From Paenibacillus lutimineralis (GTDB lineage Bacteria > Bacillota > Bacilli > Paenibacillales > Paenibacillaceae), in NCBI RefSeq assembly GCF_003991425.1, contig NZ_CP034346.1, forward strand, positions 2,579,501 to 2,643,500: 64,000 bases of DNA, in the 5' to 3' direction. The translations under genes and the position numbers were made by a program. The notes under the pieces were generated by a model. That model was not told the origin of the DNA and did no database searches. It was given only the letters and a program-made list of their open reading frames with translations. Positions 36,921-51,081 of the stretch are shown piece by piece (positions within the stretch are counted from its first letter, which is position 1; the number at the start of each line of letters is the position of its first letter).

Positions 36921-37934
36921 ATGGCAAGCATTAAGGAAATAGCCCAACTTGCAAAAGTATCGCAAGGCACGGCTTCCATGGTGTTGAATGGCAAAGGGGA
37001 TAAATACCGGATATCTGCCGCGACCCAGTTGAAAATATTAGAAGCTGCCAGAGAACTGAATTATCAGCCGAATATTTCGGCTAGACGGCTGCGGAGCGGA
37101 GGAGAAACGGTGCTGCCGATCATTGCCTTGTTCTGGACGCTCGACACGCGAACAGCACTTGTTGGCCGCTACCTAAAAGGCTTTCAACACGCCCTGAACG
37201 AGCTAGAGGATGAATATGAGCTATTGATTCAGCCCTATGTAGGTACTAAATTGCATGAGGTGAGAAGCTTAGTAACGGGAACAAGGTTCAATGGAGCGAT
37301 CATTGCTAACTCCACCGAGGAGGATGACGAATTTCTTGAGCAGGCCGAATTGAACGTTCCGATCGTGCTGCACCAACGTGAATCAAGCAAATATTCATCG
37401 GTTAACGTCGATAGCCGCAAAAGCGGCGAGATGGTGGCAGAGAGATTATACAGGAGAAATCACAAGAAGGTAGGACTGATTGTCCCGGACGTTTCCTCCA
37501 AAGCGATCACGCTGCGCAGGGAAGGATTTCAGGATAAAGCGGCCGAGCTTGGCTTGGAGATTGATGAGGAGCATCTGATGTATGAAGACTTCTCGGAGCA
37601 GGGCGGCTACGAAGCGGTTATGAGAATGAAGGAGCAGTCGGGCTCCTTGCCTACCGGTGTATTTTCGATTAGTGACCAGATGGCTGTAGGGGCGTTGAAG
37701 GCGCTGAATGAAATCGATATTAGAGTGCCGGAGGACATGGAGATCATAGGATATGATAATGACGAAGTAACCAATTTTACGATACCTACATTATCTACAG
37801 TTCATTTACCGGTAGAAGAAATGGCGAAAGAGAGTCTGAGAATGCTGACGGATATGATGCTATACAAGACCAATGTCAAGGTTCATAAAATGTTTGACAC
37901 ACACATCGTAACCCGTAGATCCTGCGGGGAGTAA
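36921..37934 (+). CDS. LacI-family transcriptional regulator
   Basis: A 337-residue LacI/GalR regulator. Residues 1-25 are the helix-turn-helix ASIKEIAQLAKVSQGTASMVLN; the hinge helix is near NYQPNISARRLRSGG; residues 65-335 are the periplasmic-binding-protein-like core with GVFSISDQMAVGALKALNE and EIIGYDNDEVTNFTIPTLSTV. It is the first gene of the sugar island and probably its local repressor, released by a sugar or sugar phosphate from the pathway. The 13-bp repeat array at its promoter is the best candidate for its binding site (autoregulation). Confidence 0.9.
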   Translation: MASIKEIAQLAKVSQGTASMVLNGKGDKYRISAATQLKILEAARELNYQPNISARRLRSGGETVLPIIALFWTLDTRTALVGRYLKGFQHALNELEDEYELLIQPYVGTKLHEVRSLVTGTRFNGAIIANSTEEDDEFLEQAELNVPIVLHQRESSKYSSVNVDSRKSGEMVAERLYRRNHKKVGLIVPDVSSKAITLRREGFQDKAAELGLEIDEEHLMYEDFSEQGGYEAVMRMKEQSGSLPTGVFSISDQMAVGALKALNEIDIRVPEDMEIIGYDNDEVTNFTIPTLSTVHLPVEEMAKESLRMLTDMMLYKTNVKVHKMFDTHIVTRRSCGE

Positions 37935-37975
37935 GCTGACACGAACTGATAGTATTATAGCCTTGTTTTGACCTA

Positions 37976-38011
37976 ACCGGGAGGGGACGGTGATCGTTTT
38001 CTCCCTGGTTA
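37976..38011 (+). promoter_or_regulatory. Hairpin between lacI and transporter genes
   Basis: AACCGGGAG (37976-37984) can pair with CTCCCTGGTT (38002-38011) with one bulge. T-rich DNA lies in the loop rather than after the stem, so it is not a standard terminator; it may reduce read-through or stabilise the downstream mRNA. Confidence 0.4.
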
Positions 38012-38080
38012 GTGGATATATGCTACACACCATAATTCACTGCCTGAAGGGGGGTGAGCGTTAAATCGGGATCGCATTAA

Positions 38081-38094
38081 AGAAAGCGCTTACA
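38081..38094 (-). promoter_or_regulatory. Second cre-like site, before the transporter genes
   Basis: AGAAAGCGCTTACA; its complement TGTAAGCGCTTTCT matches 13 of 14 positions of the cre consensus and shares TGTAAGCGCTTT with the site in the lacI promoter. It sits about 45 bp before the solute-binding protein gene. Confidence 0.6.
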
Positions 38095-38139
38095 TTATTT
38101 TGGCAGGCAAGTTTAACTAATCCTTAAAGGGGGATAAAC

Positions 38140-39468
38140 GTGAGAACAAAAAGATGGCTTGCAAGTTTCCTTATCGTAATGCTGTTAGCTTTACCGTTGG
38201 CAGGTTGTGCTGCCGACCCAAAACAGAAAGCGACGAATTCACCGGCATCAGCAAATAACGGCGGCAGTGGCAAGGTTGTCAACATCGATTTTTGGGGCGG
38301 ATGGACAGGACCTGACCTCAATACGATGGAAGGGCTAGTTAACAAGTTTAACCAGGAACAAAGCGGCATTCATGTTGAATTCACTTCCCTGCAATGGACA
38401 CCGCTCTTCACTAAATTTTTGACGGAAATGAAAGGCGGAAACCCGCCGGATGTATTGGTCATGCATCCTTTCGAATTGGGACAATTCGTGGAAATGGGTG
38501 TCCTGGACAGCAAGCCGATTGCCGATGTAGGCATAGAGACAGTGAATTACTCCTCATTTGCCTGGGGCGGGACGTTCTATAAAGGGGAGCAATATGCGGT
38601 TCCGTTAGACGTTCACATGCATGGCTTGTATTACAACAAGGAGCTTTACAATGAATCCGGAATAGCAAATCCTCCTTTGACCGGCGACGAGTTGATCGCG
38701 ACAGCCCAGAAGCTGACGATCGACAACAATGGCAAACATGCCGACGAAGAAGGCTTCGACGAGAATAACATCGTACAATACGGTCTTGGCTTCTCCATGA
38801 ACCACCATGTGTTCTATCAAATCTATGCTCTACTGAATCAGCAAGGTCATAATCCGTTCACCGAAGATATGAAAGCGGTTGAATTGGACGAGGACAAGAT
38901 GGCTAACGCAATTGCTTTCCTGCAAGACCTTGTATTCAAATATAAAGTCGTGCCAAAAGGCGAGAAATCCCCGGTTGATGATTTTATGGGCGGAAAAGTA
39001 GCGATGTTCATTGACGGACCATGGCAAATGCCGAAGTTGGAAGATTCCAATATCCAATGGGCAAGCGCGCCTTATCCTAAAGTATTCGACAAGTCAGCCG
39101 CTTGGGGAGCTGCTGAAATACTTACCTTCCCGCTCAAGAAAGATAATGATCCTGAAAAAGCCAAAGCAGCGATCGAATTCGTCAAATGGCTGGACAATAA
39201 CTCCGGAGAATGGGCTAGATCCGGTCAGCTTCCATCAAGCAATGCAGGCATGCAAACCGCCCTAAGCTTGGAAGGCAGAGAAGCATTTATTAACAGCTTA
39301 GATAACAGCGTTCTGCTTCCATCCCATCCGAAAGCGGCGCAAATTTTCTCAAGTACGGCTCCAAGCCCGATTCTGACTGCCGCTCAGGATGCCATTTTGA
39401 ATAATAAAGATCCTCATGAAATTGCCAAGCAATTGAAGAAAGAGATGGACAGTCTGCTACAAGAGTAG
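38140..39468 (+). CDS. CUT1 sugar ABC transporter solute-binding lipoprotein
   Basis: A 442-residue lipoprotein. The signal peptide ends in the lipobox LAGC (Cys about residue 23), then a Ser/Asn/Gly-rich tether, then the type I extracellular sugar-binding fold: VVNIDFWGGWTGPDLNTMEGL, PPDVLVMHPFELGQFVEMGVL, GKVAMFIDGPWQMPKLEDSN. CUT1 proteins bind mono- to oligosaccharides. GTG start, with AAAGGGGG upstream. It leads a seven- or eight-gene run of sugar catabolic genes. No ATPase gene is in the cluster, which is normal for CUT1 systems using a shared MsmK/MsmX. Confidence 0.9.
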   Translation: MRTKRWLASFLIVMLLALPLAGCAADPKQKATNSPASANNGGSGKVVNIDFWGGWTGPDLNTMEGLVNKFNQEQSGIHVEFTSLQWTPLFTKFLTEMKGGNPPDVLVMHPFELGQFVEMGVLDSKPIADVGIETVNYSSFAWGGTFYKGEQYAVPLDVHMHGLYYNKELYNESGIANPPLTGDELIATAQKLTIDNNGKHADEEGFDENNIVQYGLGFSMNHHVFYQIYALLNQQGHNPFTEDMKAVELDEDKMANAIAFLQDLVFKYKVVPKGEKSPVDDFMGGKVAMFIDGPWQMPKLEDSNIQWASAPYPKVFDKSAAWGAAEILTFPLKKDNDPEKAKAAIEFVKWLDNNSGEWARSGQLPSSNAGMQTALSLEGREAFINSLDNSVLLPSHPKAAQIFSSTAPSPILTAAQDAILNNKDPHEIAKQLKKEMDSLLQE

Positions 39469-39613
39469 AGAGCATCCGTTACGTCGTTGGCACGAAATGA
39501 CTCGATACGGCATGGGGGGGACCTGCCTTTGTCGTATCGGGTTCATGTACCACTCTATAAATGCGAGTTCAGAACTCTATAATAACCTTAGTGGTAGAAA
39601 GGTTGACAACTTC

Positions 39614-40471
39614 ATGAAATCACAAGGGAAAGTCGCGGCACTGTTCTTGCTGCCTTATTTGCTCGTATTCCTTGTCTTTCGCTTTGGACCGAGTGTAGCA
39701 GGGCTGTTCATCGGCTTTATGAAATGGAATATCGTTGGCGATGCCGAGTTTGCGGGGCTGGCCAACTTTAAGAAGCTATTTAATGATCCGATATTTTGGG
39801 TCTCTTTGAAAAATACATTGCTGTTTCTCTTATTAACATTGCCGCCGCTGATTGTGTTCAGCCTTTTGATGGCAGTACTGCTGAATCAGAAGCTGCGTTT
39901 CCGGAATGCTGTAAGAACGATTTCCATCATTCCTTACGTATTGATTCCGGCTGTCGTCGGTATTATTTGGAACTGGCTTTACGATAACAACTTCGGAATT
40001 CTCAACTACTACTTGAAGCTGATTGGTCTCGGGCCGATCGAATGGCTGACGAGTGAAAAATGGGCCCTTTTCTCGATCGCTCTTGTCACCGTATGGTCGT
40101 ACCTCGGCTACAACATGATCTTGTATCTTGCCGGTCTTCAGGATATTTCGGCGGACTTATACGAAGCTGCCAAAATTGACGGAGCCACAGGCGCTCAGGC
40201 GTTCATGAGAATTACCTTGCCTATGCTAAAGCCGATTACCTCGATGGTGATTACGCTGACCCTCGTGAATACGATTCAAATTTTTGACCAAATTTTCGTC
40301 ATGACGAACGGTGGGCCTGGAACGGCTACGCTCACAATAGTGCAATATTTGTACGGAACCGCATTCCAGAACTACAATCTTGGCTACGGCTCTGTGCTTG
40401 GCATAGCGACATTGGTCATTCTGATCGTATTTGTGCAAATTCAATCCAGATTGCTGAAGCTGGATGACTAG
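39614..40471 (+). CDS. CUT1 sugar ABC transporter permease (MalF/UgpA-like)
   Basis: About 286 residues with six membrane helices, first FLLPYLLVFLVFRFGPSVAG. The EAA loop is YEAAKIDGATGAQAFMRITLPMLKPI, which contacts the ATPase. The start at 39614 (MKSQGKVAALF) is preferred because GAAAGG lies upstream and the longer frame has no plausible start. Partner of the next permease; together they form the channel. Confidence 0.9.
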   Translation: MKSQGKVAALFLLPYLLVFLVFRFGPSVAGLFIGFMKWNIVGDAEFAGLANFKKLFNDPIFWVSLKNTLLFLLLTLPPLIVFSLLMAVLLNQKLRFRNAVRTISIIPYVLIPAVVGIIWNWLYDNNFGILNYYLKLIGLGPIEWLTSEKWALFSIALVTVWSYLGYNMILYLAGLQDISADLYEAAKIDGATGAQAFMRITLPMLKPITSMVITLTLVNTIQIFDQIFVMTNGGPGTATLTIVQYLYGTAFQNYNLGYGSVLGIATLVILIVFVQIQSRLLKLDD

Positions 40472-40485
40472 GGGAGGCTCACGGC

Positions 40486-41310
40486 ATGAAATTAAAAAAC
40501 ACTTTGACCTATGTTGCCATGGCATTCATGGGTGTCATATTTCTATTTCCCTTACTGTGGTCTGTCGTTTCTTCGCTAAAGCCGGAAGCGGAAATTATGA
40601 ATTACCCGCCGAAATGGATCGCTGATTTCACGCTTATTAACTATAAATCCGTTCTGGCTCAGTATCCGTACACTGGCTGGATGATGAACAGCTTAATTAT
40701 TACCATATTGTCCACGTTGTTCGTGTTAGTTCTGACGACGCCTGCGGCTTATGCATTCGGACGGCTTAACTTTAAGGGGAAAAAAGTTATTTTTACTCTG
40801 ATCGTCTCTATGCTGCTTATTCCGATTCAGGCTTACATCGTTCCTTTATTTTTGCTTGTTTCCAAATTGAAGCTGCTAAATACATTTGCTGCGCTGATTT
40901 TGGTAGCGGGCGCGAACGTCATTAGCGTGTATATTCTAACCAGCTTCTTCAAGGGGATTCCAAATGAGCTGGAGGAAGCCGCGAGAATCGATGGCTGCAA
41001 GGATTTCGGGATATTCTGGAAGATTATGCTGCCATTAACGAAACCCGCTGTCTCCACGGTAACGATCCTAATGTTCATCTCAAACTGGAACAACTTCCTG
41101 TGGCCGATGATAGCGATTCGTGCTAACGCCTTAAAGCCGCTGACAGTAGGGATCGCGCAGTTTATGGGTGGGGCGAATTCCACCGCACAATTCCAATACG
41201 GCACATCGCTTGCCGCTGCTTGTATGGCTATTATCCCGTCCGTGATCGTGTTCTTGTCTTTGCAGCGCTATTTTGTGGAAGGAATCACGAATTCAGGGAT
41301 TAAGGGTTAA
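40486..41310 (+). CDS. CUT1 sugar ABC transporter permease (MalG/UgpE-like)
   Basis: A 274-residue six-helix permease. The EAA loop is EEAARIDGCKDFGIFWKIMLPLTKPA and the ending is QRYFVEGITNSGIKG, the conserved MalG-type C terminus that inserts into the ATPase dimer. AGGGGAGG precedes the ATG, 14 bp after the previous stop, so the genes are co-transcribed. Confidence 0.92.
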   Translation: MKLKNTLTYVAMAFMGVIFLFPLLWSVVSSLKPEAEIMNYPPKWIADFTLINYKSVLAQYPYTGWMMNSLIITILSTLFVLVLTTPAAYAFGRLNFKGKKVIFTLIVSMLLIPIQAYIVPLFLLVSKLKLLNTFAALILVAGANVISVYILTSFFKGIPNELEEAARIDGCKDFGIFWKIMLPLTKPAVSTVTILMFISNWNNFLWPMIAIRANALKPLTVGIAQFMGGANSTAQFQYGTSLAAACMAIIPSVIVFLSLQRYFVEGITNSGIKG

Positions 41311-41335
41311 AGAAATATCAGGAGGGAATTTCAGC

Positions 41336-42355
41336 ATGTTCAATGAGATTGCCAATGAATTGATTATGGGTATGGACAAATCTTTTGCCAGCTGTCACGC
41401 TTCACATCTAGCTGTCCTGCCTAGCGGAGATATGCTGGCTGTCTGGTTTGCGGGGAGCAAGGAAGGTGCGGATGACAGCGCGATCTGGTGCTCTGGCAGA
41501 ACAGGCGGGAACTGGTCGCAGCCGGTGAAAATTGCCGCTGGAGTAGAGGAACCATGCTGGAATCCGGTACTTATGAATTTGCCGGGCGGCGAGCTGCTGC
41601 TGTTCTATAAAATCGGACGCCTTATCAAGGAATGGCGAACCCTCTATAAAATTTCCAAGGATGAGGGAAGAACCTGGTCGGAGGCGAGTGAGCTTGTTCC
41701 CGGAGATCGGGGCGGCAGAGGCCCGGTTCGCAATAAAGTGGTCGTTCTTTCGGATGGAACCTGGATTGCTCCGGCTTCCGCCGAGGACGGAATTTGGACG
41801 TCATTTGCGGATCGCTCGCAAGATCAAGGCCTGACCTGGAGGAGGAGCGAGGACATCGGCATCGCCGGGATTGATCGGAGTGACATCCATGCGGTGAAAA
41901 GTGAAATTCCGGTGTCGGAGCAATCTTTTTATGGCCGAGGGGTCATTCAGCCGTCTGTATGGGAGTCTCAACCGTGCCAGGTTCATATGCTTATGAGAAG
42001 CTCGGAAGGCTTCATTCATCGCAGTGATTCGCAGGATGGCGGCGTTCATTGGAGCGCGGCTTATCCTACGATCGTTCCGAATAATAACAGCGGTATGGAT
42101 GTTGTACGCATGGATGATGGAACTCTGGTGCTCTGCTGTAACCCCGTTGGGACCAATTGGGGGCCCCGCACACCGCTTGTATTGATGGTGTCCTCGGATA
42201 ATGGACTGACCTGGGTGGAGGAAGTTGTGCTGGAAGAAGAGGAGGGAGAATTCTCGTATCCGGCGATTATTGCCCGAGATGATCATATCTACCTGACTTA
42301 TACATGGAATAGAGTCAATATCGCCTTTAGAGAGTTTAGTAGGATCTCGAAGTAA
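41336..42355 (+). CDS. Cytoplasmic Asp-box (sialidase-fold, BNR) protein
   Basis: About 340 residues. Four Asp-boxes (S-x-D-x-G-x-x-W) are visible: SKDEGRTW from S107, then SQDQGLTW, SQDGGVHW and SSDNGLTW, giving a six-bladed beta-propeller. The start HASHLAVLPSGDMLAVWFAG and RGPVRNKVVVLSDGTWIAPAS are typical of the BNR_2 sialidase-like group common in Bacilli. There is no signal peptide, so any glycosidase or lyase activity would be on imported oligosaccharides. Sialic acid is not implied: other enzymes of this cluster point to 6-deoxyhexoses or pentoses. AGGAGGGA precedes the ATG. Confidence 0.82.
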   Translation: MFNEIANELIMGMDKSFASCHASHLAVLPSGDMLAVWFAGSKEGADDSAIWCSGRTGGNWSQPVKIAAGVEEPCWNPVLMNLPGGELLLFYKIGRLIKEWRTLYKISKDEGRTWSEASELVPGDRGGRGPVRNKVVVLSDGTWIAPASAEDGIWTSFADRSQDQGLTWRRSEDIGIAGIDRSDIHAVKSEIPVSEQSFYGRGVIQPSVWESQPCQVHMLMRSSEGFIHRSDSQDGGVHWSAAYPTIVPNNNSGMDVVRMDDGTLVLCCNPVGTNWGPRTPLVLMVSSDNGLTWVEEVVLEEEEGEFSYPAIIARDDHIYLTYTWNRVNIAFREFSRISK

Positions 42356-42454
42356 TTTAGGTGATCGTGATCCGAATTTTGAAAATATTGCAGGGGCAAA
42401 AGGTTAACGGATAGGAATTGTTGTTTATTGATTACATTCGTGGAGGGAACATAG

Positions 42455-43390
42455 ATGTTGAATCAGCCGCAATCACATATTCCGAACGGTGTGTGGCCGA
42501 CGATGGTCACGCCGTTTAAAGAGAACGGAGAAATCGACTTTTTCGCCCAGGAGCGGGCGGTCGAGTGGTATATCCGGCATGGCGTGGACGGTCTGTTCGC
42601 GGTTTGCCAATCGAGTGAAATGTTTCATTTAAGTTTGGAAGAAAGAGTGAAGCTGGCCTCTTTTATTAAGGAAAAAGCAGCAGGGCGAGTGCCTGTTATT
42701 GCTTCAGGGCATATTTCTGACGATATCGAAGACCAGATTGAGGAGCTAGCGGCTATGGCCGCAACGGGCATCGATGCGCTCGTACTGATCACGAACCGGG
42801 TGGCTCGCGAGGATGAGTCGGATGATGTTTGGAAGATCAATCTTGAGAAGCTGCTGAGCAGATTGCCGGAGGAAATTCCGCTGAGCTTCTATGAGTGTCC
42901 GTATCCCTATAAAAGAATCATTTCTCCAGAGCTGCTTAGGTGGTGCGCAAGTACGGGCAGATTCCACTTTTTGAAAGATACTAGCTGTGATGCGGACAAT
43001 ATTCGGCAGAAGCTGAAGGCCGTACAAGACAGCTCTTTGAAAATATATAATGCAAACTCAGCAACGCTGCTGGAGACGCTTCGCCTAGGCATTGCGGGAT
43101 ATAGCGGCGTGATGGCGAATTTCCACCCTGACTTATACGTTTGGCTGCTAAGAAATTGGGAAAACGAGCCGAATAGAGCAGAAACGCTCATTAATTTCCT
43201 AAGTATGACCTCTCTTATTGAGAAACAATTATACCCGGTAAATGCCAAGTACTATTTAATGCTAGAAGGCGTCTTTGATAACTATTATTGTCGGGTGAAG
43301 AATCATCATGAATTCACGGCGACGAACCGCTTGGAAATCCATCAGCTGCATCAATTATCCAGGCAGTTATCAGAGCAATTCATTTTATAA
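42455..43390 (+). CDS. DHDPS/NAL-family aldolase with altered GxxGE motif
   Basis: A 311-residue class I (Schiff-base) aldolase of the dihydrodipicolinate synthase / N-acetylneuraminate lyase family. The Schiff-base lysine is K174 in HFLKDTSCD and the catalytic tyrosine Y146 in SFYECPYPY, 28 residues apart as usual. The pyruvate carboxylate loop, normally Gly-Ser/Thr-Thr-Gly-Glu, reads AVCQSSEMFHLS, so a different keto acid or aldehyde is likely. NAL-family enzymes split 2-keto-3-deoxy sugar acids to pyruvate and an aldehyde. Here it stands between an Asp-box protein and FucI, where an L-fuculose-1-phosphate aldolase would be expected. Start follows GGAGGGAAC. Reaction not predictable. Confidence 0.87.
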   Translation: MLNQPQSHIPNGVWPTMVTPFKENGEIDFFAQERAVEWYIRHGVDGLFAVCQSSEMFHLSLEERVKLASFIKEKAAGRVPVIASGHISDDIEDQIEELAAMAATGIDALVLITNRVAREDESDDVWKINLEKLLSRLPEEIPLSFYECPYPYKRIISPELLRWCASTGRFHFLKDTSCDADNIRQKLKAVQDSSLKIYNANSATLLETLRLGIAGYSGVMANFHPDLYVWLLRNWENEPNRAETLINFLSMTSLIEKQLYPVNAKYYLMLEGVFDNYYCRVKNHHEFTATNRLEIHQLHQLSRQLSEQFIL

Positions 43391-43402
43391 GGAGGCTTAT
43401 TC

Positions 43403-45196
43403 ATGAGTACACCGATGATTGTAAACCGATTAGAGGGCGATATGCCCAAAATAGGCATACGTCCGGTCATTGACGGACGGCGCGGTGGAATCCGCGAATC
43501 GCTCGAGGAGCCAACGATGAATTTGGCGCTGGCTTGCGCCCGTTTTCTCTCGGAAAATCTTCGTCATGCCAATGGATTGCCTGTAGAATGCGTGGTGGCA
43601 GATACGACGATTGGCGGAGTTCGTGAGGCGGCCAGTACGGCTGAGAAATTCCGCCGGGAAGGCGTTGGCCTAACGATTACGGTTACCCCATCCTGGTGCT
43701 ATCCGCTCGAGACGATCGATACAGATCCATGGATGCCGAAGGCGATCTGGGGCTTCAATGGGACGGAGCGTCCGGGAGCGGTCTATTTGGCAGCAGCGCT
43801 GGCCGCTCATAATCAGAAGGGCTTGCCCACGTTTAGCATTTATGGACGGGATGTACAGGATATTGGCGATGACAGTATTCCGGAGGATGTGCAGGCCAAA
43901 TTGCTGAATTTCGCTAAGGCGGGGCTTGCTGTAGCTACGATCCGTGGTAAATCCTATTTGTCGATGGGAACGGTGTCGATGGGCATTGCCGGATGTATCG
44001 TGGACGAAGGCTTTTTCCAGAACTACCTCGGCATGCGCAATGAGTACGTCGATATGACCGAGTTCATCCGGAGGATGGAGCGGGGCATTTACGATAAGGA
44101 AGAATATGAGCGCGCGTTGGCGTGGACGAAGGAGAACTGCAAGGAAGGGGAAGATATTAACCCGCCGGAACGGCGAAGAACAGCGGAGCAGAAAGTAGAG
44201 GATTGGGAGACCGTGGTCAAGATGGCGCTGATCGCCCGCGACCTCATGGTCGGCAATCCGAAGCTCGCGGAAATGGGATATGGTGAGGAAGCCGAGGGGC
44301 GTAATGCCATTGCCGCCGGATTTCAGGGACAGAGAGCCTGGACGGATCATTTGCCTACCGGCGATTTCATGGAGGCGATCCTGAGCAGCTCCTTCGATTG
44401 GAACGGTATTCGTGAGCCGTATATGCTGGCAACGGAGAATGACAATTTGAACGCGGTCTCGATGCTGCTCGGTCATCAATTGACGAACGGTGCACAAATT
44501 TTTGCCGATGTTCGTACGTATTGGAGCCCGGAGGCTGTCGAGCGCGTTACCGGGAAGAAGCTGGAAGGACGTGCAGCATGCGGAGTGATCCATCTGATTA
44601 ACTCCGGCCCGGCTTCCCTGGACGGTACAGGTCAGCAGTCGCTGAACGGTCAGCCGGCCATGAAGCCTTTCTGGGAAATAAGCGAAGAGGAAGTTCAGAA
44701 GTGCCTTGATGCAGCAGCCTGGTGTTCGGCGAAGGATTTCTTCCCGTCCGGCGGTTTTTCAACAGATTTCACGACACGTGGCGGCATGCCGCTGACGATG
44801 GCTCGGATCAACCTGATCCATGAAATCGGCCCAGTACTGCAAATTGCCGAGGGATATTCCGTAGAATTGCCGGAGGATGTACATGACGTACTTGATCGCC
44901 GGTCTGATCCTACATGGCCGACCACATGGTTTGTGCCGAGATTGACCGGAACGGGAGCTTTCAAGGATGTTTACACCGTCATGAACAATTGGGGCTCTAA
45001 CCATTGCGCCGTCAGTTATGGCCATGTTGGTCCCCAGTTAATTACGCTTGCTTCGATGCTGCGTATTCCGGTAAATATGCATAACGTACCTGAGGAAGAT
45101 ATTTTCCGTCCAAGCGTATGGTCGGCCTTCGGCGCTAATGATGTAACCGGAGCGGATTACCGAGCATGTGCTGCCTTTGGACCTCTGTATAAATAA
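43403..45196 (+). CDS. fucI: L-fucose isomerase
   Basis: A 597-residue L-fucose / D-arabinose isomerase, same length as E. coli FucI (591). Hallmarks: [19 protein letters not shown] at the N terminus, [56 protein letters not shown] (catalytic Glu/Asp, Mn binding) and [11 protein letters not shown] (third metal ligand). It converts L-fucose to L-fuculose and usually also D-arabinose to D-ribulose. It starts 12 bp after the aldolase gene and 42 bp before the kinase gene. Purine-rich AAGGAGG precedes the ATG. Confidence 0.95.
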
Positions 45197-45238
45197 TTGC
45201 TAGTGCGGAACTGGAGAGAAGAGGGGAGGAGCATAGAT

Positions 45239-46918
45239 ATGGATGTACGGTATGTACTCGGAATTGATTATGGCACGGAGTCAGGGCGTGTTGTACTTGT
45301 AGATGTGAGTGATGGCCAGGAGATAGCTTGGCATGTGACGCCTTATCCTCATGGCGTCATGGATGTGGAGCTTTCGGGAACTGGGGTCAAGCTGGGAGCG
45401 GAGTGGGCGCTGCAGCATCCTCAGGATTATGTGGAGGTGCTGAGGAAATCCGTTCCCAAAGTTCTGGAGATTTCCGGCGCTCAGCCGGAGCAGATTATTG
45501 GGATTGGTGTCGATTTTACCTCCAGCACGATACTTCCCGTCGATCAAGATGCTAATCCGTTATGCTATGCCGAGGAGTTCCGCGGTGAGCCTCATGCTTA
45601 TGTAAAGCTGTGGAAGCATCATGCAGCCCAGCACGAGGCTAATCTTATCAACGAGCTTGCAGCTTCGCGGGCAGAGAGTTTCCTCGGAAGGTACGGCGGC
45701 AAGGTGTCTTCCGAATGGATGACGGCCAAAGCTCTCCAGGTGCTTCGGGAACGCCCCGATATTTATGACGCGGCAGACCGCTTTGTAGAGGCTGCGGATT
45801 GGATCGTATTTGTCATGACCGGGGCTTTGAAGCGAAATAGCGGGTGCGCTGGTTATAAATCGCTTTGGCATCGCAGAGAGGGATATCCTTCGACGGAATT
45901 TTATCGGAATCTGGATCCCCGCTTTGCTTCGTTTGCTGAGGTTAAACTGAAGGGAGATATCGTGACACTGGGCGAGTCGGCAGGCTTACTCACGGAAGAG
46001 GCTGCAGGCATGATGGGCCTGCGACCAGGTATAGCCGTGGCCCCGGGCATTATTGACGCTCACGCAGCGGTCCCGGGGGTTGGAGCGACCACATCCGGAG
46101 ATATGGTACTGTCGATGGGAACCTCGTTATGCCATTTACTGCTTAGCGATCAGGAAATTCAAGTGGAAGGCATTTGCGGCATAGTGGAGGACGGAATTAT
46201 TCCCGGGCTGTATGCTTATGAAGCCGGCCAGCCGGCTGTAGGGGATATGTTCGGCTGGTATGTGAAGCAGGGGATACCTGCTTATGTGGAAAGGCAGGCC
46301 GAACAGGCGGGCGTGTCAGTTCATGAATGGCTGGAAGCCAGAGCGGCTAAGCTACTGCCCGGCGAGAGCGGGTTGATCGCACTCGATTGGTGGAACGGGA
46401 ACCGTTCGAACTTGGTGAATTCCGAGCTCAGCGGCATGATTATCGGCCTAACACTGCAAACAAGACCCGAGGAGATTTACCGGGCTTTACTGGAATCTGC
46501 GGCGTTTGGGACTCGCCATATTATCGAGGCGTTTGAAGCTGTCGGGGTAGAGGTTCAGGAACTGTACGCTTGCGGCGGATTGCCGCAGAAAAACAAGCTC
46601 CTGATGCAGCTATATGCGGATATCACTGGTCGAGAGATTAAAATTGCCGCTTCAGCACAGACTCCCGCACTAGGAGCAGCGATGTTTGGGGCGGTAGCAG
46701 CTGGTTCCTTACGAGGCGGCTATGATACGATTCAGGAAGCAGCCAAGCATATGGTTCATCTCCAGGAACAGAGCTATTCGCCGAACACAGCGCATCAAGC
46801 AATGTATGATGAGCTATATAGGGAGTATCGCCGACTGCATGATTATTTCGGCCGGGGCAGTAATTATGTAATGCCTAGATTAAAGCAGCTGCAGAAAAAG
46901 GCCGTTACGACTTCCTGA
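45239..46918 (+). CDS. FGGY sugar kinase, ribulokinase (AraB)-like
   Basis: About 559 residues of the FGGY kinase family. The N terminus [17 protein letters not shown] holds the phosphate loop; [20 protein letters not shown] and [20 protein letters not shown] are the second-domain motifs. The stretch [22 protein letters not shown] and [20 protein letters not shown] closely resembles bacillar L-ribulokinase AraB rather than fuculokinase FucK. It may therefore phosphorylate L-fuculose or ribulose, at C1 or C5. The ATG at 45239 follows GGGGAGGAG; the frame is open upstream without a proper site. Confidence 0.88.
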
Positions 46919-46985
46919 CTCTTTACAACGAAGCGATATCAACCTTAGATTTAATTACATTTGTAAAAAGAAGGAAGGAAAACCG

Positions 46986-47510
46986 ATGATACTGGGTGAC
47001 ATCAGGAACCTGGATCAAGAGAAGCATTTATACCCTTCGGCTGTACGAAGAGGGCTGGAATATATAATGCTGCATCAGCTAGAGGATGCTCCACCCGGTA
47101 AATATGAGCTGGAAAGTGAAGAGATGTTTGCTATTGTCCAGGAGTATACTACGATGCCGATTTGTGGTCAGCAATACGAATCTCACTACAGCTATATCGA
47201 TATTCAGTATTTGGTGAGCGGTATGGAACGGATCGGCTGGAAAAGATATGATGAGAGCTTGAAGATTAGCGTAAACCGCCTTTGCGAGGACGATATACAA
47301 TTTTATGAGGATGGCTTCAGCTTAAGCGAGACAGATAAATTGTCCGGTAAAGAGAGTTGGCAAAGGGAAGGCAGTGACTTGATTATGGAGCCAGGGTTGT
47401 TCGCTGTGTTCTTCCCAACGGATCTGCATCGCCCATGTGGTCACGTGCACAGAGAGAGCAGAATTCGCAAGATCGTTATAAAAATTCACCGAAGTCTCTT
47501 CATGATTTAA
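46986..47510 (+). CDS. YhcH/YjgK/YiaL-family protein
   Basis: A 174-residue beta-sandwich protein of the YhcH/YiaL/EbgC family: MILGDIRNLDQEKHLYPSAV at the start, ESHYSYIDIQYLVSGMERIGW and VFFPTDLHRPCGHVHRESRIRKIVIKI, with conserved His and Glu residues that bind a metal. Relatives sit in sialic acid, ascorbate and beta-galactoside clusters, and are thought to act on sugar anomers or related intermediates. Last gene of the sugar island, 67 bp after the kinase. AGAAGGAAGG precedes the start. Confidence 0.85.
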   Translation: MILGDIRNLDQEKHLYPSAVRRGLEYIMLHQLEDAPPGKYELESEEMFAIVQEYTTMPICGQQYESHYSYIDIQYLVSGMERIGWKRYDESLKISVNRLCEDDIQFYEDGFSLSETDKLSGKESWQREGSDLIMEPGLFAVFFPTDLHRPCGHVHRESRIRKIVIKIHRSLFMI

Positions 47511-48282: not shown

Positions 48283-48431
48283 TATACAGGAGAAGATCGA
48301 AATGGATATACATGATGTGCATCTTGACAATGGAGCATCGCCCCCTTCCTGGTACTTAACCATTTGCCCAGTTCACGCATACACATAGAACAAAGCCTAA
48401 TTTTATGGTGACTGTGAAAGAGGTGACAGGC

Positions 48432-49436
48432 ATGATCAAGCGAAATGCGATGCTGCTGATTGCCCTCCTGGTGCTGTTTACGTCGGGATTGGCGGGTTGT
48501 GCAGGCGGTAGCGGGGCAAAGATCAGAATCGGTGAGGTTACGCGTTCGGTCTTCTATGCACCCGAATATGTTGCTCTGGAGAAGGGATTCTTCAAGGAAG
48601 AAGGTCTTGATGTTGAGCTGCAGACGACAGCTGGCGGAGACAAGACCATGACGGCGTTGCTGTCCGGTGCAATAGACGTAGCTCTGGTCGGAGCTGAGAC
48701 ATCCATATACGTATACCAGCAAGGTGCGGAAGACCCGGTCATTAACTTTGCCCAGCTGACACAGACGGACGGTACCTTCCTTGTTGCACGGGAAGAGACA
48801 GGTGAATTCGATTGGTCGAAATTGAATGGGAGTGTCTTCCTCGGTCAAAGAAAAGGCGGTATGCCGCAGATGGCTGGTGAGTTTACACTCAAGAAGCATG
48901 GAATCGACCCTCACGCCGATCTGGAATTGATCCAAAATATTGAATTCGCCAACATAGCCGCTGCGTTCGCATCAGGTACGGGACAATATGTTCAATTGTT
49001 CGAACCGCAAGCTTCGATATTTGAACGTGAAGGCAAGGGCCATGTTGTAGCTTCGTTTGGTACGGAGAGCGGACAGCTGCCCTATACCGTATTCATGACC
49101 AAGCAGAGTTATATGAACAAGCATAAAGATGCAGTCCAGAAGTTTACGAACGCGATCTATAAAGCCCAGATGTGGGTTGGATCACATACGCCGGAGGAGA
49201 CCGCGAAGACGATAGCACCCTACTTCAAAGATACAGATATGGACATTCTGACCAGCTCAGTGAAGCGCTATCTCGAGCAAGGAACCTACGCTTCAACACC
49301 AGCCCTACATGAAGAAGCCTGGAACAATCTGCTTGATGTTATGGATAGTGCGGGAGAACTGAAGGGACGCGTAGAGATGGCGAAGGTGGTTAACAATGAT
49401 TTTGCGGAATCTGCAGTTAAGGCAAGTTCCAAATAA
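48432..49436 (+). CDS. NMT1/SsuA-like ABC solute-binding lipoprotein
   Basis: A 334-residue lipoprotein (lipobox LAGC, Cys about residue 23) with the NMT1/THI5-like fold: GEVTRSVFYAPEYVALEKGF, GLDVELQTTAGGDKTMTALL, GAIDVALVGAETSIYVY. The family binds pyrimidines, sulfonates, riboflavin or aromatic compounds. It heads a three-gene operon with an ATPase and a permease of the taurine/nitrate-type importers. GAGGTGA precedes the start at 48432. There is no thiamine or FMN riboswitch signature before it, so thiamine-related uptake is not supported. Confidence 0.88.
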   Translation: MIKRNAMLLIALLVLFTSGLAGCAGGSGAKIRIGEVTRSVFYAPEYVALEKGFFKEEGLDVELQTTAGGDKTMTALLSGAIDVALVGAETSIYVYQQGAEDPVINFAQLTQTDGTFLVAREETGEFDWSKLNGSVFLGQRKGGMPQMAGEFTLKKHGIDPHADLELIQNIEFANIAAAFASGTGQYVQLFEPQASIFEREGKGHVVASFGTESGQLPYTVFMTKQSYMNKHKDAVQKFTNAIYKAQMWVGSHTPEETAKTIAPYFKDTDMDILTSSVKRYLEQGTYASTPALHEEAWNNLLDVMDSAGELKGRVEMAKVVNNDFAESAVKASSK

Positions 49437-49463
49437 TTAACCGGACGGAAGGGAGTGTGAGCG

Positions 49464-50273
49464 GTGGTTCCTGTCGTAGAACTGAAGGATTTGGATCATT
49501 TATATTTAACGGATCGGGAAGCGATACTTGCACTCAAGGGGATCAATCTGGCCGTGAATGCGGGTGAATTTATCAGCTTGGTTGGCCCTAGCGGCTGCGG
49601 CAAGACCACGCTTCTATCACTGATTGCCGGATTATTGTCCCCGTCCCGGGGACAGGTGCTGCTGCATGGCAAGCCGATCATGGGGCCAACACCTGAGATC
49701 GGCTACATGCTGCAGCAGGACTATTTATTTCCTTGGCGGACGATTCTAAGTAATGCACAACTTGGTCTTGAATTAACCAGAAGATTGAATGAACGTAGCA
49801 CCCTTATGGTCATGGAGCTTCTGGAGGGGATGGGGCTAGGGAATACAGCGAATCAGTATCCGCATCAACTCTCAGGGGGGATGCGGCAGCGTGTGGCGCT
49901 CGTCCGTACTTTGGCAACGGACCCGGACCTGCTGCTTCTGGATGAGCCTTTCTCGGCGCTCGATTATCAGACGAAGCTTCAGCTGGAGGATCTTGTCGTT
50001 GATACGCTTAGGCAAAGGGGCAAGACCGGGATACTGGTCACGCATGATTTGTCAGAAGCTATTGCGGTGAGCGATCGGGTTATTGTCCTTGCCGCGAAGC
50101 CGGGAAGAATGAAGAGCACTTATGATATCCCGGACAACATTCGAAAACTACAACCTTTCTATGCCAGAGAGGAAGAAGGCTTCAACGAGTTATTCCAGGA
50201 AATATGGCGTGATCTGGAGACTTCGGAGGAGAGGGGGATGAAGGATGTCGCTCACACAAACTTTGAAGGTTAA
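49464..50273 (+). CDS. ABC importer ATPase (nitrate/sulfonate type)
   Basis: A 269-residue ATPase: Walker A GPSGCGKTT (about 41-49), Q-loop GYMLQQDYLFPWRTI, signature LSGGMRQR, Walker B LLLLDEPFSALD, H-loop ILVTHDLSEAI. The LSGGMRQR and FPWRTI features are typical of SsuB/TauB/NrtD. GTG start after GAAGGGAG. It overlaps the next gene by 29 bp, so translation is coupled. Confidence 0.92.
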   Translation: MVPVVELKDLDHLYLTDREAILALKGINLAVNAGEFISLVGPSGCGKTTLLSLIAGLLSPSRGQVLLHGKPIMGPTPEIGYMLQQDYLFPWRTILSNAQLGLELTRRLNERSTLMVMELLEGMGLGNTANQYPHQLSGGMRQRVALVRTLATDPDLLLLDEPFSALDYQTKLQLEDLVVDTLRQRGKTGILVTHDLSEAIAVSDRVIVLAAKPGRMKSTYDIPDNIRKLQPFYAREEEGFNELFQEIWRDLETSEERGMKDVAHTNFEG

Positions 50274-51081
50274 TCATGGGGAGAAGGATTGGATCAAGGA
50301 GCAATGGCACAGGCATCGTCGGCAAAAAAGCATGCGTAGACGTCTTGTACTAAGTACTCAACTAGCGCTTCTGTTTATATTCATCGGGTTATGGGAGCTG
50401 GCTGGTCAATTGAAATGGATTGACGTCTTAATCTTCAGCTACCCATCCAAGGTCGCTCGGCAAATTGCCAAGGATGCCTTGTCCGGCGAACTGTGGCCAC
50501 ACCTTGGGATTACGGTGGCTGAGACGGCGGTCGGTTTCTTACTTGGAACGTTGATCGGAACTGCCCTAGCGGTTGTAATCTGGTGGTCGCCGTTCCTGTG
50601 CAGGGTGCTGGATCCTTATATGGTCGTGTTCAACAGCATGCCTAAGGTTGCGCTAGGGCCGATATTTATCGTGATGTTCGGAGCGGGTTATACAGCGATC
50701 GTCATTACGACACTGTCCATTACGGTCATCGTTACGACCCTAGTGGTATATAACAGCTTTAACGAGGTGGATCAGAACTTGATCAAGGTTATTCGAACGT
50801 TTGGCGGCACACGCCGTGACGTGTTCTTAAAGGCGATTCTGCCAGCCTCATTCCCTACGATCGTATCCACCTTAAAGGTGAACGTCGGCATGGCTTGGGT
50901 AGGTGTCATCGTTGGAGAATTTCTCGTCGCAAAAATAGGGCTAGGCTATTTGATCGTCTATGGTTTTCAAGTGTTTAATTTCACCCTGGTGCTGTCCAGC
51001 CTGGTCATTATTGCTATTGTGGCGACGGCGATGTATCAACTGGTCGTATATATTGAACGCAAACTGCTGAAGGAGCGGTAA
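50245..51081 (+). CDS. ABC importer permease (SsuC/TauC-like)
   Basis: A 278-residue permease with about six helices and the binding-protein-dependent signature GGTRRDVFLKAILPASFPTIVSTLKVN. It begins inside the end of the ATPase gene and ends in a terminator whose loop holds the stop codon. With the two upstream genes it forms a complete importer of unknown, probably small anionic or aromatic, substrate. Confidence 0.9.
   Translation: MSLTQTLKVNHGEKDWIKEQWHRHRRQKSMRRRLVLSTQLALLFIFIGLWELAGQLKWIDVLIFSYPSKVARQIAKDALSGELWPHLGITVAETAVGFLLGTLIGTALAVVIWWSPFLCRVLDPYMVVFNSMPKVALGPIFIVMFGAGYTAIVITTLSITVIVTTLVVYNSFNEVDQNLIKVIRTFGGTRRDVFLKAILPASFPTIVSTLKVNVGMAWVGVIVGEFLVAKIGLGYLIVYGFQVFNFTLVLSSLVIIAIVATAMYQLVVYIERKLLKER

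Follow-up and report, generated by a model that had tools for sequence, protein, structure and literature searches.

A nine-gene island of Paenibacillus lutimineralis as a probable pathway for the import and catabolism of Kdo through D-arabinose

A 64,000-nucleotide stretch of the Paenibacillus lutimineralis genome (contig NZ_CP034346.1, positions 2,579,501 to 2,643,500; hereafter the window) contains a sugar-utilization island of nine genes at window positions 36921-47510. The genes are arranged head to tail on the + strand with intergenic gaps of 0-205 bases, and the source genome is a single 6.50 Mb contig. The island probably encodes a linear pathway for the import, cleavage and catabolism of 3-deoxy-D-manno-oct-2-ulosonic acid (Kdo). 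In the proposed route, a CUT1 ABC transporter would import a Kdo-containing oligosaccharide, a sialidase-fold Asp-box protein would release Kdo in the cytoplasm and a YhcH-family protein would help to open the Kdo ring. A Schiff-base-type aldolase of the dihydrodipicolinate synthase (DHDPS) family, marked by a CQSSEMF motif, would then split Kdo, giving pyruvate plus D-arabinose (EC 4.1.2.23). FucI would convert D-arabinose to D-ribulose, and the AraB-type kinase would yield D-ribulose-5-phosphate, which would enter the pentose phosphate pathway with no need for FucA. Gene order, protein families, fold, conservation, linkage, gene fusions and a separate fucose gene set were observed, and from these we infer every substrate named. 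The reaction types are known, while the assignment of genes to them and their assembly look new. All genes and families that had been listed in an earlier sequence-only reading were found by Pfam and NCBIfam scans, with some starts slightly corrected:

36921..37934, + strand, LacI-family regulator (Pfam LacI/Peripla_BP_3)
38140..39468, + strand, CUT1 sugar-binding lipoprotein (Pfam SBP_bac_1; lipobox identified by eye)
39614..40471, + strand, CUT1 permease A (Pfam BPD_transp_1; start moved from 39497)
40486..41310, + strand, CUT1 permease B (Pfam BPD_transp_1)
41336..42355, + strand, Asp-box protein, proposed Kdo glycosidase (sialidase fold; reading frame open from 41273, start at about 41336)
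42455..43390, + strand, class I aldolase of the DHDPS family with the AVCQSSEMF loop, proposed Kdo aldolase (PF00701, 95.3 bits)
43403..45196, + strand, FucI, proposed D-arabinose isomerase (NCBIfam fucI; PDB match; tree)
45239..46918, + strand, AraB-type FGGY kinase, proposed D-ribulokinase (NCBIfam ribulokinase; reading frame open from 45197, start at about 45239)
46986..47510, + strand, YhcH-family protein, proposed sugar-acid anomerase (PF04074 and TIGR00022, above cut-off)

The aldolase has the features of a class I pyruvate aldolase, namely the fold shared by DHDPS and N-acetylneuraminate lyase (NAL; model pLDDT 93.3), a Schiff-base lysine and a catalytic tyrosine. Tyr146, Lys174 and the AVCQSSEMF loop are present as previously noted, and both residues together with C51-Q52-S53-S54-E55 were invariant in all 51 aligned sequences (47 of the 120 listed matches, three loci and the window). 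The G-x-x-G-E loop that is canonical for DapA- and NanA-type enzymes is replaced by C-Q-S-S-E in the same 51 sequences. As the AVCQSSEM loop was also found in all of the best 120 of 6,989 aldolase matches, it does not represent a sequencing oddity. The best-scoring match, 96% identical, is named Paenibacillus motobuensis. The enzyme scored below the DapA equivalog model TIGR00674 (83.7 against a cut-off of 206.15) and far below the models for N-acetylneuraminate lyase (43.1/281 and 36.6/382, score/cut-off), and structure comparison gave ties between NAL and DHDPS. Members of the NAL family are described in passages of two reports as acting on Kdo: LaNAL condensed D-arabinose and pyruvate to Kdo with 80% conversion in 120 h at 1.5% relative activity (PMC4016182), and cleavage of Kdo is described for both E. 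coli NanA and human NPL (PMC13220900). The product of the island aldolase is very probably D-arabinose, and its substrate is quite probably Kdo.

FucI and the kinase are predicted to form a D-arabinose module. The window FucI exceeds both NCBIfam fucI cut-offs (1054.3/775 and 1029.2/850), which are blind to the use of D-arabinose versus L-fucose, and its best PDB match is 3a9r, 'D-arabinose isomerase' (1008 bits). The kinase exceeds the ribulokinase (AraB) cut-offs (739.5/428 and 688.3/583.25) and matches the ribulokinase 3qdk (803.5 bits); the only other match in its own genome at E 1e-20 is 28% identical. The same gene pair was found in a different setting: among 16 hand-picked FucI loci, seven carry FucI, AraB, DUF2961/GH172 and DUF4185/GH183 side by side without the aldolase, five are of the FucA/FucU type and four are neither (L124, L125, L126 and L130, the last near a contig end). 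GH172 (DUF2961) has exo-D-arabinofuranosidase and GH183 (DUF4185) endo-D-arabinanase activity, and a predicted fucose isomerase was the most abundant carbohydrate-active enzyme of Dysgonomonas gadei on D-arabinan, as stated in sections of PMC10115798. The seven loci are putative D-arabinan operons of Paenibacillaceae (L123, L127, L128, L129, L131, L132 and L133; Pfam was run for L132), and in most of them LacI and CUT1-like genes were seen. A tree of 28 FucI rows places the window protein with FucIs of the D-arabinan operons and with those of further operons that contain the aldolase, and six FucA/FucU-linked FucIs form one separate starred group (support 100/98). A further D-arabinose-type FucI is located at L126:1211-9300 (genome G027) near TctB, TctA, a ROK protein and, by eye, a sulfatase-like reading frame; the CQSSEM aldolases of G027 lie elsewhere.

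The genome encodes a separate set of FucI, a FucA-like aldolase, a rhamnulokinase-like (FucK-like) kinase and RbsD/FucU at about 1.7367-1.7411 Mb (L003/L108), presumably the true L-fucose operon. Its FucA and FucK are named by context, since they score below the NCBIfam cut-offs (fucA 93.7/400.25, rhamnulokinase 464.6/527.95), and its FucI shares 68% identity with that of the window. Unlike this set, the island has no class II aldolase, rhamnulokinase-like kinase or RbsD/FucU. Because of the separate set and the FucI tree, L-fucose was rejected as the main substrate of the island FucI. Pfam and NCBIfam scans of the nine island proteins bore out the earlier statement that a class II aldolase, a dehydrogenase and a dehydratase are all lacking among them. 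The genome does have five genes of the class II aldolase family (PF00596), all outside the island: one in the L-fucose set, one with AraA, one RhaD, one MtnB and a fifth without a clear assignment. An L-arabinose role of the island kinase is unlikely, as the araD-araA set carries an XylB-like kinase (103.1/380.25) and the island kinase has no close paralogue in the genome.

A second arrangement of the aldolase points to the same pentose. Locus L011, from a metagenome-assembled genome of Oscillospiraceae, encodes in order IclR, an Asp-box protein, a CQSSEMF aldolase, TctC, TctB, TctA, a ribokinase-like kinase, a SIS protein and RbsD/FucU. Its Asp-box protein and aldolase are 50% and 57% identical to those of the window, and neither FucI nor AraB had a match in the 20.9 kb stretch. 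The ribokinase-like kinase reaches 288 bits against a cut-off of 299.65. For the SIS protein, scores were 122.9/203.7 for the KpsF/GutQ family and 114.4/505 for KdsD, with 92 bits to PDB 2xhz, 'ARABINOSE 5-PHOSPHATE ISOMERASE'. RbsD/FucU scored 103.6/25 with Pfam and 47.7/93 with the NCBIfam ribose pyranase model. As the NCBIfam scores lie below curated cut-offs, these enzyme names are likely rather than proven. At E 1e-8, an arabinose-5-phosphate-isomerase-like gene was detected in L011 only among 89 loci (L006-L059, L068-L101 and L107). Judged by protein family, isomerase-then-kinase and kinase-then-arabinose-5-phosphate-isomerase would fit two unrelated routes from D-arabinose to D-ribulose-5-phosphate, with the same start and the same end. 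A pyruvate aldolase that yields D-arabinose would be a Kdo aldolase, apart from the C4 epimer.

Gene fusions support the earlier suspicion that the Asp-box protein and the CQSSEMF aldolase belong together. A search seeded with a fusion protein (proteins of 0.55-1.75 times the seed length, 7,994 candidates scored) returned 113 clusters, of which 85 are aldolase-Asp-box fusions, a count made by eye from Pfam assignments that gives no frequency among all aldolases. Three clusters (P0342, P0345 and P0350) join a CQSSEMF-type aldolase to a SIS domain of the kind seen in L011 in a single chain, and the aldolase part of P0342 is 47% identical to the window aldolase.

The CQSSEM aldolase adjoins FucI in 11 genomes. 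Seven of the linked loci (the window, L006, L007, L068, L069, L070 and L073) carry LacI, CUT1 and the Asp-box gene, although five of the 11 genomes (the window, L006, L007, L068 and L069) are close kin or equal, with FucI at least 94% identical. Two loci carry TRAP DctPQM carriers (L008, Bacillus; L010, Mesobacillus), and two carry a carrier of the major facilitator superfamily (MFS) and a 2-hydroxyacid dehydrogenase (L079 and L107); the outer end of L079 additionally holds a gene resembling a CUT1 permease. Such dehydrogenases stand beside CQSSEM aldolases in four loci (L079:15829-16926; L107:7586-8551, where Pfam was run; L075; L077). AraB adjoins FucI in 10 of the 11 loci. The Asp-box gene is present in all seven CUT1 versions, and at E 1e-15 it had no match in the whole genomes of the four TRAP and MFS versions. 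TRAP carriers mostly import carboxylates, and the FucI-linked loci fit a requirement for the Asp-box protein when an oligosaccharide is imported; L011 breaks this rule. Members linked to FucI are scattered over a 49-row aldolase tree (five changes needed, at least three forced by starred branches), so the linkage has been kept or made several times. Of 30 genomes with the aldolase, 29 have FucI, compared with 135 of the 215 that lack the aldolase (Fisher 4e-5; genome size uncontrolled; genome lists compiled by eye), and FucI of at least 75% identity is present in 11/30 and 20/215, respectively (2.5e-4). Wider sampling added few further triads: six of 398 genomes had an aldolase match, that of the window included, all within the family already sampled, and a second sample gave two of 397, of which L107 was new.

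The Asp-box protein, a BNR_2 protein with four S-x-D-x-G-x-x-W boxes, has no signal peptide by eye and would thus be cytoplasmic. The sialidase beta-propeller fold of GH33 was found for it, while querying the PDB with this protein by itself returned nothing at E 0.001 for one choice of start and a single match (E 0.00076) for the other. In a weak alignment to NanA (34 bits), Y306 and R219 align with a Tyr and an Arg that we take to be the nucleophile and the second member of the Arg triad. R276 lies two columns off the third Arg, and the alignment stops short of the first Arg and the acid Asp. In ten clusters (P0326, P0329, P0330, P0332, P0335, P0338, P0341, P0344, P0348 and P0353) the Asp-box domain is fused to an FAD-dependent oxidoreductase (PF12831). 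Such redox fusions are ill-suited to a simple glycosidase and may hint at another role of the domain in some lineages. The Asp-box reaction is the weakest step of the proposed route; the chance that this protein is a Kdo-releasing hydrolase is about even, and the same holds for YhcH as an anomerase. The YhcH protein reaches the subfamily model TIGR00022 (101.7 against 45.5) and falls below the N-acetylneuraminate anomerase model NF040884 (101.2 against 160).

Several observations weigh against the Kdo pathway. In the alignment the C-Q-S-S-E loop of the aldolase replaces G-T-T-G-E, at a place where residues of NAL and DHDPS bind the pyruvate carboxylate; the changed loop could mean a different donor, and the Kdo scheme does not account for it. 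In the same weak alignment, the position of a NanA Glu, presumably the catalytic Glu that activates the Tyr nucleophile, is held by Q203 of the Asp-box protein, which is invariant in 52 of 52 sequences (51 of 120 listed matches were included); a Gln would thus stand in place of the GH33 catalytic Glu. L011 pairs its Asp-box gene with a tricarboxylate-type TctCBA carrier, and the presence of an Asp-box gene only with an oligosaccharide carrier therefore holds for the FucI-linked loci only. L073 has no AraB nearby, YhcH accompanies six of the 11 linked loci, the dehydrogenase beside the MFS versions has no role in the Kdo scheme, and in the midpoint-rooted tree the long-branched, aldolase-linked FucI of L107 sits on the fucose side. 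From 38 locations of the aldolase in Paenibacillaceae, 34 loci were fetched (set aside were the window's own, L006 and L007, which were already included, and G060, a near-copy of G038). In 29 of these 34 loci, a CQSSEM-type or related aldolase has no FucI nearby; 11 of the 34 carry a window-type Asp-box gene and seven a more distant BNR_2-like gene. Most family members in Paenibacillaceae are therefore not tied to D-arabinose by linkage, and the rest of the aldolase family may use other sugar acids. With the linked genomes removed, FucI of at least 75% identity was no longer significantly enriched (4/22 against 20/215, p 0.17), so the enrichment is due to the linked genomes.

The sequence-only reading had allowed for two converging branches acting on one imported oligosaccharide. 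In the form weighed here, the Asp-box protein and the aldolase would act on a deoxy sugar acid (for example a KDG-like or other ulosonic acid), and FucI and the kinase on D-arabinose from another residue. The earlier reading's FucI/kinase pentose module and an aldolase likely acting on a 2-keto-3-deoxy acid have held up, and the two branches can point to Asp-box/aldolase pairs and many CQSSEM aldolases without a nearby FucI, as well as to FucI-AraB without the aldolase. Against them, the triad stays intact where the carrier is of the TRAP or MFS type and the Asp-box protein is missing, L011 keeps the aldolase while another likely D-arabinose route replaces FucI and AraB, and an arabinose-5-phosphate-isomerase-like domain is fused to the aldolase. 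One linear route, in which the aldolase acts before FucI, explains the data better, because the aldolase-FucI-AraB triad persists behind these carriers and L011 swaps FucI/AraB for ribokinase-like and arabinose-5-phosphate-isomerase-like proteins; two parallel branches are unlikely. Less likely still is an aldolase that cleaves a different C8/C9 ulosonic acid and passes the resulting aldehyde to FucI. Examples would be Kdo in oxidised or phosphorylated form, its C4 epimer, or a nonulosonic acid giving a sugar of the L-fucose/L-galactose type. FucI-type enzymes accept sugars of the L-fuco/D-arabino pattern, and the P0342 SIS domain is similar to isomerases of phosphosugars, which would allow for a phosphorylated substrate in those fusions; the AraB-type and ribokinase-like kinases point instead to an unphosphorylated pentose, and among natural compounds Kdo is the common one with this shape. 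The suggestion that the aldolase stands in for FucA by splitting a ketose phosphate, prompted by the lack of a class II aldolase among the nine proteins, is very improbable and was rejected. The Lys and Tyr that pyruvate aldolases use in catalysis show no variation, D-ribulose-5-phosphate can be reached without an aldolase, the fusions with a sialidase-fold protein and with an arabinose-5-phosphate-isomerase-like domain would be hard to explain, and the genome has its separate FucA-linked set.

Regarding the remaining island features, LacI copies 94-96% identical to that of the window head the same operon in L006, L007, L068 and L069. Paenibacillus woosongensis and P. ihumii are among the species with this operon. 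The start of permease A is probably 39614 by computation, and the relatives in L006 and L007 are 285 amino acids long. Between the LacI and binding-protein genes lies an imperfect palindrome (window 38078-38097), a possible operator; no usable result came from looking for a conserved operator of the LacI type. Predicted promoters were as frequent as chance would give (16 found, 15.4 expected), and predicted terminators slightly more frequent than that (15 found, 10.5 expected). Downstream of the island, window positions 48405-51081 seem by eye to encode a NitT/TauT-type ABC transporter (binding protein, ATPase and permease). Elsewhere in the genome (L120, about 4.863-4.875 Mb), another BNR_2 protein is clustered with a DHDPS-family enzyme bearing a G-S-T-G-E loop, YhcH, an RraA-like protein, a 2-hydroxyacid dehydrogenase and permeases, which may represent a similar pathway directed at a different sugar acid.

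Kdo is a constant constituent of the outer membranes of Gram-negative bacteria. It also occurs in the pectin rhamnogalacturonan II, as mentioned in a passage of PMC12282258, and it should therefore be common in soil and gut. If the proposed pathway is true, it describes Kdo catabolism in full and supplies a candidate gene for the cleavage of Kdo, an activity that formerly counted as orphan. A large DHDPS-like family would then need re-annotation, as would some 'L-fucose isomerases' and 'sialidases'. A broader version is put forward tentatively, at slightly less than even chances: the whole CQSSEM branch with its fusions would be the missing Kdo aldolase, its fused or neighbouring Asp-box partners a new family of intracellular enzymes, glycosidases (or lyases) for ulosonic acids, whose sialidase active site is modified, and, with two interchangeable D-arabinose modules, Kdo catabolism would be widespread in Bacillota.

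The reaction proposed for the island aldolase is that of Kdo aldolase (EC 4.1.2.23), which is named in a portion of PMC4412817 and tabulated, with the mark 'difficult', in a survey of orphan enzymes from 2007 (PMC1940265). No gene for EC 4.1.2.23 and no gene set for Kdo catabolism was recognised among the open-licence papers that the literature searches listed, and a candidate sequence family is proposed here. For the preceding step, GH33, the sialidase family, is listed with Kdo hydrolase activity in excerpts of PMC9120202 and PMC11214529. The Asp-box protein would share with such hydrolases the sialidase family fold and a Kdo glycoside substrate, a likeness drawn from published descriptions, and differs in having Gln at the catalytic Glu position; this precedent and the L011 carrier offset each other. 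The sialic acid pathway of NanA resembles the island in its sialidase-fold protein, its YhcH protein or anomerase and its DHDPS-family aldolase. The island differs from it in the C-Q-S-S-E loop in place of G-x-x-G-E and in downstream genes that suit D-arabinose, not N-acetylmannosamine. In the L-fucose pathway of Campylobacter, a DapA-like (DHDPS-family) aldolase likewise lies in a fucose-named cluster, but that route needs a dehydrogenase and a dehydratase first, both absent from the island. The D-arabinan operons of Paenibacillaceae share the FucI-AraB module, with FucI 76-78% and the kinase 61-63% identical to those of the window; there D-arabinose would be released by D-arabinan hydrolysis, whereas in the island it would come from aldol cleavage.

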